Below the pieces are notes generated by a model, which saw only the letters and a program-made list of their open reading frames with translations, was not told the origin of the DNA and searched no databases. Source: a virus. From it: 38,212 bases of DNA. The stretch covers positions 1-38,212 of the IMG/VR virus record IMGVR_UViG_3300035682_000087. The stretch is one strand, 5' to 3'. The position numbers were made by a program, and so were the translations under genes. Each line of letters begins with the position of its first letter. Positions within the stretch are counted from its first letter, which is position 1. Below are positions 804-38,212 of the stretch, one piece after another.

Positions 804-1412
804 ATGTCCAAAGTCACGTTGTCCCTCCGTTCCCTCCGCTACGTCCTTCCGCACGTGTCTACCGAAGCGTCACGGCCAATTCTAGGTGGCGTCCTACTCG
901 AACCGTCCGGCGTGATCGTCGCCACCAACGGGAAGACACTTGTCTCGTATGCTCACGCTGTGTCCGGTGTTACTCGTCCGATTATCGTCGCATTCCCGAA
1001 GCTTGCAGCGAAAGGCGATACGCTGGAATTCACGATGCCGGCGGAAAACGACAACACTCCGATTGTGGCACGTGTGCTAACAGACCGCGGTATGGAAATT
1101 GAGCGCGTGATCCTCCGCGAAGTGGAAGGGCCGTTCCCGAACTGGCGCAACGTTTTCCCGGCAAGCGACGCTAAACCGATTCCGGCGGTTGGAGTCGATC
1201 CCGAACTACTGGCGCGGTTCTATGTGAAAGGCTCAAAAGAGCTTGAGTCGATAGTGCTTGAATTCTTCTCCCCGGAAAGCGCCATTCGTGTCACGTACCC
1301 AAAGCGCCCCGAAGTTGCCGGGCTCATCATGCCGGTGCGGGTGACGATAACACCCGATACGGGTTGGGTGATGCGAAGTGCTGCCTGGGAACCGGTCCCG
1401 CCTGTCGACTGA
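804..1412 (+). CDS. DnaN-like DNA sliding clamp, short form
   Basis: This 202-residue protein resembles the bacterial DNA polymerase III beta subunit. RPILGGVLLE (24-33) followed by VATNGKTLV matches the first clamp domain; EGPFPNWRNVFP (108-119) matches the FPDYRRVLP segment that opens the third domain; LIMPVRV (174-180) matches the C-terminal MPMRL signature. Bacterial DnaN has about 370 residues and three domains, so this looks like a two-domain clamp, as in T4 gp45 or PCNA, which are trimers. The ATG at 804 follows an AGG and is preferred to 735, which overlaps the upstream gene. No phage DNA polymerase is seen, so it probably serves or redirects the host polymerase. The family call rests on motifs only. 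Confidence 0.75.
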   Translation: MSKVTLSLRSLRYVLPHVSTEASRPILGGVLLEPSGVIVATNGKTLVSYAHAVSGVTRPIIVAFPKLAAKGDTLEFTMPAENDNTPIVARVLTDRGMEIERVILREVEGPFPNWRNVFPASDAKPIPAVGVDPELLARFYVKGSKELESIVLEFFSPESAIRVTYPKRPEVAGLIMPVRVTITPDTGWVMRSAAWEPVPPVD

Positions 1413-1415
1413 CTA

Positions 1416-1479
1416 AGGCGAAACTAGGGACGTGCAAGCGTCCCTAGTCTGTCCGGTAGATACCGGCACTGATGAGCCT
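1416..1479 (+). ncRNA. Type II hammerhead self-cleaving ribozyme
   Basis: All invariant parts are present in order. Stem II 3' strand AGGC (1416-1419) is followed by GAA (1420-1422). Stem III is a perfect 10-bp helix (1423-1432 with 1439-1448) closed by UGCAAG and starts with the required A15.1-U16.1 pair. Cleavage nucleotide C17 is 1449, giving the classical GUC site. Stem I is UG/CA, a bulged U, then CCGGU/ACCGG around AGAU (1450-1468). The core CUGAUGA is 1469-1475, and stem II 5' strand GCCU (1476-1479) pairs with AGGC, including the conserved G10.1-C11.1. The molecule is open in stem II, hence type II. It begins 3 bases after the clamp stop codon and should cut the transcript between 1449 and 1450. 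Confidence 0.92.
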
Positions 1480-1498: not shown

Positions 1499-1612
1499 AT
1501 GCGCCCACACACAACCGCTCGCCCATTCCTTGAACGTCGCCCTGGTGTCGCCGTTATCGGCCTTTTCGCCCTTTGGGTGGCTACTGGAATCCTAGAAGGG
1601 TTGGGCCTCTAA
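1499..1612 (+). CDS. Micro membrane protein A1 (37 aa)
   Basis: A 37-residue peptide with an Arg-rich N-terminus (ARPFLERR) and one hydrophobic helix (GVAVIGLFALWVATGILEGL). It is a paralogue of the peptide at 2218-2319: both share RP-x-FLERR, a G-rich start of the helix, GLF-x-LW and (I/V)LEGLG at the C-terminus. The paralogy is the main evidence that it is coding. Its TAA overlaps the next ATG (TAATG). There is no clear Shine-Dalgarno; an in-frame ATG at 1472 inside the ribozyme core would give nine extra residues. Inner-membrane location is likely. Holin-like, lysis-inhibition or superinfection roles are possible; none can be shown. Confidence 0.7.
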   Translation: MRPHTTARPFLERRPGVAVIGLFALWVATGILEGLGL

Positions 1613-1851
1613 TGACCACGACTGACACTATCCGCGCGAAAGTCGCAGACAGTCGCGCCGTAACCAAATTCCGCGACGCACCTAGCGAGCTTGCGGCCGC
1701 TCATCCTGAGCTTGCCCGGCGCGCCACTGTTGCGCGGCAGACAAGTGGCATGCTAGGCACTACGTACACGTACCGGCTTCACGCGGATAGGACGGCCGCG
1801 CACAAATACGCGAACGGGCAGGACAATAGCGTACGGCTCGTTATCCCGTGA
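1612..1851 (+). CDS. Hypothetical protein (79 aa)
   Basis: The ATG at 1612 overlaps the TAA of the preceding micro membrane gene, with AGAAGGG about 12 bases upstream. The product starts MTTTDTIRAKVADSRAV and contains an Ala-rich stretch (SELAAAHPELARRATVARQ) followed by a more polar C-terminal half with several Tyr, His and Arg residues. There is no membrane segment and no recognised family. Translational coupling to the membrane peptide suggests a joint role. The longer frame starting at 1573 would overlap the paralogous peptide and has no better start signal. Confidence 0.65.
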   Translation: MTTTDTIRAKVADSRAVTKFRDAPSELAAAHPELARRATVARQTSGMLGTTYTYRLHADRTAAHKYANGQDNSVRLVIP

Positions 1852-1933: not shown

Positions 1934-2221
1934 ATGACCACGTACAACGGCTGGCAGAATTACGAGACCTGGCGCGTGAATCTGGAAATGCTCGATGGAC
2001 AGACAGCGGACGACTTCGGCGTTTCCGCACGCGACGTAGAAGACGACAAGGACGGCGCAACGGCGCGACTCGCCACGGCGCTTGAAGAAAGCGTAAACGA
2101 GTTTGTAGAGTCGCAATCGTCCGGGTTTGCGCTCGGCTTGGCGCAGTCGTTTTTGAGCGCCGTAGACTGGGCGGAAATCGCGGAACACTTCATAGATGAC
2201 CTAGATGAGGCCGGACGATGA
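1934..2221 (+). CDS. YNGWxNYETW-family small acidic protein (95 aa)
   Basis: The N-terminus reads MTTYNGWQNYETWRVNLEM, the hallmark of a widespread family of small phage and plasmid proteins of unknown function, usually recognisable by YNGWxNYETW. The C-terminus, VDWAEIAEHFIDD, also matches the family, whose members often end in a similar W-x-EIAEH motif. The middle is acidic (VEDDKDGA). AGGTGA sits at good distance before the ATG and a promoter lies at 1859-1887. Its TGA overlaps the ATG of micro membrane protein A2. Members are often found near anti-restriction or early mobile-element genes; no activity can be assigned here. Confidence 0.85.
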   Translation: MTTYNGWQNYETWRVNLEMLDGQTADDFGVSARDVEDDKDGATARLATALEESVNEFVESQSSGFALGLAQSFLSAVDWAEIAEHFIDDLDEAGR

Positions 2222-4986: not shown

Positions 4987-5652
4987 TCACGAGCTTCGTA
5001 TCGGGTTGCCAAAGTCCTTCGGGAGCGGCCTGGCGATCAGTTTCTGGACCGGCGGCTCGTTTGCCGGCTGACCAAGTGCCCGCGCCCGGATCGGGTTGAT
5101 CCACTTCGGGCTGGCGTCGTCGGACGGCTTGCGCTTTGGCAAGATACAGTCATCTATCGGCACGAAATCGTGTGCATATACGTCGATATGCTTCGCGCCA
5201 GACTTAAATGCCGCATGATCGGGGATATACGCCACGGCGGACACCTCGTGTGTCTCTAGCTGCACCTTCCGGTTAAAAAACGTCACGCTCGGTCGGTCAA
5301 ACTCCAGCCGCTCGAACGTGCACCCGTCACGTGTCCGTACACGGTACGCACCAGCGTGCCGGAGCATCACCTTGCCGCTGCTGGGCTTCCGGGCAGGCTC
5401 AAACGGCACAAACACCCACGCAAAATTCTCGACGTTCCGGCGCGTCACGGCAATGATGCCGAATTGCCGCAAGCGGGTCATGACGTGCTTGAGATACGTC
5501 GGTGTGACCCCCCGGCGGTCCTTTTCGAGCGCCGTCGCAATCTGAGACTTCGTGACCGGGCCGGAGTCCTGCACAATCTTGATAATCCACGCGGCCACGT
5601 CTCGGCCAAGAAAGCCCGCGTCGATGCGCGGGTCCGGTTGGGTCACAGCCAT
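4987..5652 (-). CDS. Hypothetical protein with winged-helix-like N-terminus (221 aa)
   Basis: Residues 18-75 (AWIIKIVQDSGPVTKSQIAT, then LKHVMTRLRQFGIIAVTRR) look like a winged helix-turn-helix. The middle is beta-rich and contains KVQLETHEVSAVAYIPDH; the tail is Pro- and basic-rich. The start ATG lies in the last codons of the upstream micro membrane gene (10-base overlap). It is the last gene of the leftward replication/accessory operon. A DNA-binding regulatory role is inferred from the N-terminus only. Confidence 0.65.
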   Translation of the reverse strand: MAVTQPDPRIDAGFLGRDVAAWIIKIVQDSGPVTKSQIATALEKDRRGVTPTYLKHVMTRLRQFGIIAVTRRNVENFAWVFVPFEPARKPSSGKVMLRHAGAYRVRTRDGCTFERLEFDRPSVTFFNRKVQLETHEVSAVAYIPDHAAFKSGAKHIDVYAHDFVPIDDCILPKRKPSDDASPKWINPIRARALGQPANEPPVQKLIARPLPKDFGNPIRSS

Positions 5653-38104: not shown

Positions 38105-38212
38105 GACCAGCATGCCGACCAGCATGCCGACCAGCATGCCGACCAGCATGCCGACCAGCATGCCGACCAGCATGCCGACCAGCATGCCGACCAGCATGCC
38201 GACCAGCATGCC
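38105..38212. repeat. 12-bp tandem repeat array, right end
   Basis: Nine perfect copies of GACCAGCATGCC run to the last base; a poly-C stretch (CCCTCCCCCCCCTCCCCCCC type, 38085-38104) precedes them. The last 99 bases equal the first 99 of the window. On the minus strand the array reads as repeated MLVG in one frame, but all frames are open and nothing supports translation. Confidence 0.95.

Follow-up and report, generated by a model that had tools for sequence, protein, structure and literature searches.

The window, as we call the whole stretch of viral DNA analysed here (38,212 nt), carries near its start a cluster of genes in which a predicted type II hammerhead ribozyme lies in the gap between a sliding-clamp-like gene and a gene for a 37-aa protein. 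The features discussed below are as follows.

804..1412, plus strand: 202-aa upstream gene, sliding-clamp-like (labelled DNA polymerase processivity factor or RusA-like; PHROGs phrog_947, 8.7e-11, and phrog_3007, 2.9e-16)
1416..1479, plus strand: predicted type II hammerhead ribozyme, whole motif (sequence, RF02276 match, scan and fold)
1416..1419, plus strand: stem II 5' strand AGGC, forming 4 bp with GCCU at 1476-1479 (sequence)
1420..1423, plus strand: core G12, A13 and A14 (1420-1422) and A15.1 (1423) (sequence; aligned to the RF02276 consensus GCGAAAC)
1424..1447, plus strand: stem III hairpin, 9 Watson-Crick pairs and 1 G-U pair, GCAA loop (sequence; fold)
1448..1449, plus strand: U16.1 and C17, with predicted cleavage after C1449 (sequence; RF02276 alignment)
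1450..1468, plus strand: stem I hairpin, 6 bp, bulged U1452, loop UAGAUA (sequence)
1469..1475, plus strand: core CUGAUGA, C3 to A9 (sequence)
1476..1479, plus strand: stem II 3' strand GCCU (sequence)
1499..1612, plus strand: 37-aa protein gene, one hydrophobic stretch (homologues in relatives L124 and L141)
1612..1851, plus strand: 79-aa gene, its start overlapping the stop of the micro-protein gene
1934..2221, plus strand: DUF7249 gene, which follows the hammerhead both here and in L151 (Pfam PF23907, 1.3e-8)

An earlier note on this DNA had called the 202-aa protein a clamp, an assignment that is plausible but uncertain: the protein matches the PHROG for processivity factors at 8.7e-11, but has a better match to a family labelled RusA-like. 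Its phage homologues are annotated either way, as clamp or processivity factor or as RusA-like, and one of the two PHROG labels that match it is probably wrong. The description of the cluster as an early operon is drawn from gene order only. Two paralogous micro-proteins are encoded in this cluster, at 1499-1612 and 2218-2319 (FLERRPGVAVIGLFALWVATGILEGLGL and FLERRQGGAIFGLFVLWLALGVLEGLGY), and homologues occur in the relatives L124 and L141, both of which lack a hammerhead. Cultured phages gave no match in a distant DNA search with the ribozyme, and a protein search with the micro-protein gave none either. At positions 1-120 of the window a 12-base repeat, GCCGACCAGCAT, forms an array of about ten copies. 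In contig L035, which is the same phage, window position 38208 is joined to position 14, which makes the record circular or permuted and puts the array inside the genome.

The intercistronic motif reads AGGC GAA A CUAGGGACGUGCAAGCGUCCCUAG U C and then, past the predicted cleavage site, UGUCCGGUAGAUACCGGCA CUGAUGA GCCU on the plus strand, in the strand order of a type II hammerhead, with stem II open and stems I and III closed by loops. The invariant core is present in full (CUGAUGA, GAA, A15.1-U16.1, G10.1-C11.1 at 1476/1419, and C17 at 1449), and every coordinate and core position that the earlier note gave for a type II hammerhead holds in the sequence. A15.1 (1423) pairs with U16.1 (1448) and, together with nine Watson-Crick pairs (1424-1432 with 1439-1447), makes up the perfect 10-bp stem III described there; a U1433-G1438 wobble extends the helix and closes the GCAA loop. 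Stem I is formed by U1450-A1468, G1451-C1467, C1453-G1466, C1454-G1465, G1455-C1464 and G1456-C1463, leaving U1452 bulged and UAGAUA (1457-1462) as the loop.

Scanning both strands with a type II pattern gave one match in the window, at 1416-1479, and none in 100 simulated sequences of window length (order-1 Markov samples with the dinucleotide frequencies of the window, not exact shuffles), which backs the claim of a complete type II hammerhead. Neither a second type II hammerhead nor a type I/III stem II hairpin on CUGAUGA was found in the window. For the isolated 72-nt RNA, the minimum free energy and centroid structures are both the native three-helix hammerhead (-31.3 kcal/mol, z -4.0). 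The Rfam model Hammerhead_II (RF02276) aligns to the motif from end to end at 24.2 bits, with E 0.005 when 201 nt were compared with all families and E 2.3e-4 for the whole record. The identity of 1416-1479 as a complete type II hammerhead is thus well supported from its sequence, and the motif is probably functional as a ribozyme.

A default Rfam scan of the window returned nothing, the 24.2 bits lying below the RF02276 gathering score of 37, which is a curation threshold and not a structural feature. The half of the earlier note's refuting condition that concerned a covariance-model hit would have been too strict, since a match at or above gathering is not expected for the short-loop sub-type described below. 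Rfam scores phage short-loop type II hammerheads mostly at 15-35 bits and gives the intact hammerhead of L151 only E 0.1, thereby missing it, so a score below gathering is no evidence against the motif in the window. Members of RF02276 have the same core and the same stem II-open strand order and are intergenic in phages and prophages (PMC3088659); the window motif differs from them in its short stem I hairpin (19 nt, with a 6-nt loop), a stem II of 4 bp and the absence of a clear pseudoknot between loop I and the 3' tail, and these differences account for its score below the cut-off. Such a pseudoknot, described in 2011 (PMC3088659), is common but not universal in type II hammerheads, and the window offers only a 4-nt complement, GUAG/CUAC.

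Type II hammerheads had been called uncommon in phages, which is wrong: one strict pattern finds at least 119 stretches in viral contigs, a few of them chance matches without stems and most of them clear hammerheads (see also PMC3088659). Among the matches listed, 153 distinct motifs with good stems split into two groups, one with a long loop (118) and one with a short loop (34). The long-loop motifs among the matches listed mostly have a 3-bp stem II and a loop I that pairs with the tail 3' of stem II, with at least four complementary bases in 76% of them versus 28% when tails were shuffled among sequences; the short-loop motifs gave no such signal (9% versus 11% shuffled). Short-loop motifs among the matches listed have a stem I hairpin of 17-18 nt, mostly a 4-bp stem II (29 of 34) and often UA after GCC, and their helices I and III differ in sequence yet stay paired across all 34, pairing being in part a selection criterion.

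The window motif shares a 6-bp stem I, a U-starting loop of 5-6 nt, a 4-bp stem II, UA after GCC, and C17 with this group, to which, its bulged U apart, it belongs on these sequence traits. The short-loop hammerheads of other IMG/VR phages (L011, L020, L008 and L151) likewise have the 6-bp stem I, the U-starting 5-6-nt loop, the 4-bp stem II, often the GCCUA tail, and a placement at gene junctions; the loop UAGAUA recurs in L011, and similar loops, UAAAUA and UAAAUG, in L020. The extra bulged U is peculiar to the window, and was unseen among relatives with a 17-18-nt stem I in the matches listed. Two MAFFT alignments (A1 and A2) placed stem I inconsistently.

This bulge, unique in its length class, would fit a decaying or inactive hammerhead, its core kept by recent ancestry and its useful cleavage blocked by the bulged stem I or by a competing structure. 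Indeed, in a 181-nt context fold stem II is broken and its strand pairs instead with the end of the clamp gene, and the patchy distribution of the hammerhead among relatives points the same way. No core base has been lost, however, and in its loop and stem II the motif conforms to the sub-type. The same folding model disfavours most phage hammerheads, so context folds say little about the copy in the window. Nor did we find a conserved hairpin further upstream by which stem II could be switched off, the complementarity being present in 11 of 121 hammerheads versus 11.3 with shuffled partners. As most phage hammerheads are affected alike and the competing pairing occurs at chance frequency, we regard the context fold as a caveat and not as a switch, and consider an inactive hammerhead unlikely.

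Relatives of this phage were found through their terminase, and 32 of them have at least 4 kb upstream of that gene in view. A hammerhead is present in only one of these, L151, and the absence from the other 31 indicates that it is dispensable. The terminase of L151 is 78% identical, and this phage has an intact short-loop hammerhead in the same gene cluster, spaced 5 nt from the stop codon before it and 25 nt from the start codon after it. It lies upstream of the DUF7249 gene with one 82-aa gene between them; in stem sequences and in neighbouring genes it departs from the window. Among the matches listed, the only other copy of the exact ribozyme of the window is identical.

In L124 (about 870-900) and L141 (about 5370-5395), both without a hammerhead, strong G+C hairpins lie in gene gaps soon after stop codons, and these are possibly a non-catalytic counterpart of the hammerhead. 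That relatives encoding the same micro-protein have plain G+C hairpins in nearby gaps is consistent with a role of the hairpin without cleavage, in which stem III, long and ending in GCAA, would terminate transcription or form a barrier at the 3' end behind the clamp stop codon. Stem III lacks a following T run, however (the next bases are UCUGUCC), and a terminator scan does not list it. Such a role would also leave unexplained a complete catalytic core of which 0 of 100 simulated windows gave an example, and we find it decidedly improbable. An intrinsic terminator at stem III was rejected, there being no U run directly after a G+C hairpin.

The motif lies tightly between its neighbouring genes, with spacings as first reported: three bases separate the clamp stop TGA (1410-1412) from position 1416, and 19 bases separate position 1479 from ATG 1499. 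Both are typical for the class. Among the matches listed, with 119 phage hammerheads, a stop codon lies -1 to 10 nt upstream of 51%, and a start codon 10-35 nt downstream of 82%; both occur together in 42% of these hammerheads versus 1.3% of random same-strand positions, and in 1.7% when the same intervals are read antisense. This stereotyped placement at gene junctions favours the separation of the two messages that the earlier note had proposed; the change in message stability that it had added may follow.

Since the frame of the core AUG (1472-1474) is open through the 37-aa gene, that codon could instead start a 46-aa version of the protein encoded there, with folding of the ribozyme controlling its translation. 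This is very improbable: among the 121 hammerheads in the matches listed, the frame is open for at least 25 codons in 65, versus 63 for a control frame, and the typical start in the matches listed lies 20-30 nt downstream of the hammerhead. The L124 and L141 homologues start later, near the residue corresponding to ATG 1499, which is therefore favoured over the in-frame ATG 1472 within the core.

Hammerheads in gaps between co-directional genes, as in the window, are also found in cultured phages, where each genome has an array of ten long-loop hammerheads as against one in the window. Streptomyces phage Celia (MN062705) has ten type II hammerheads within 41297-49021 of its record, occupying 10 of the 12 gaps of at least 37 nt in the 41-49 kb gene cluster as annotated by the depositors; the gaps measure 60 nt or more, apart from an annotated gap of 37 nt that a hammerhead overlaps, and one hammerhead also overlaps an annotated gene start. 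Celia gene 73, OCR-like antirestriction, has one hammerhead on each side. Streptomyces phage VieEnRose likewise has ten, but hammerheads are absent from the related Likavirus phages Aaronocolus and Hydra.

Hammerheads work in pairs in eukaryotic retrozymes and viroid-like RNAs (PMC7761336), and this precedent, along with the sporadic distribution, could suggest that the hammerhead is the mark of an RNA element, mobile or circular, and not of mRNA processing. With one hammerhead found in the genome there is no unit bounded by two, and placement follows gene junctions, which makes this reading barely credible.

We suggest, at a probability of roughly two in three, that the hammerhead in the intercistronic gap cuts the mRNA of the clamp-like and 37-aa genes, and that the two messages are then translated and decay independently. 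Hammerheads cleave 3' of position 17, leaving a 5'-OH and a 2',3'-cyclic phosphate, by an established mechanism in which C17 attacks, G12 is the base and the 2'-OH of G8 the acid. Here, the 2'-OH of C1449 would attack the phosphate to U1450, with G12 (G1420) as base and the 2'-OH of G8 (G1474) as acid. The upstream message would keep its stop codon and gain a 3' end made of the stem III hairpin and a 2',3'-cyclic phosphate, while the downstream message would open with a 5'-OH and the hairpin of stem I, its new end being 49 nt from AUG 1499. By what is generally known of RNA decay in bacteria, both new ends should withstand the usual exonucleases and the decay that depends on a 5'-monophosphate, and we infer that the ribozyme would be active in the cell and affect expression or message stability.

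For tandem hammerheads, published work showed self-cleavage in vitro and in E. coli and suggested a role in processing long transcripts of phages (PMC3088659); our reading invokes processing of that kind, cleavage having been demonstrated there for other members. The roles of hammerheads in prokaryotes have been called open (PMC6155905), and their function in phages is a question standing since 2011. A literature look-up on a possible aminoglycoside link returned nothing on phage hammerheads. The window provides a clean case of a single ribozyme, unremarkable within its class as to both kind and placement, and the class gains a quantified signature, a stop codon just before and a start codon 10-35 nt after. 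With ten hammerheads each, Celia and VieEnRose can be set against relatives that have none, which makes the processing hypothesis directly testable. More tentatively, and with the odds somewhat against it, phage type II hammerheads, including the short-loop sub-type without a pseudoknot, may be general intercistronic "cut and cap" modules that replace ordinary junctions; if so, they would turn one transcript into separate messages with protected ends.
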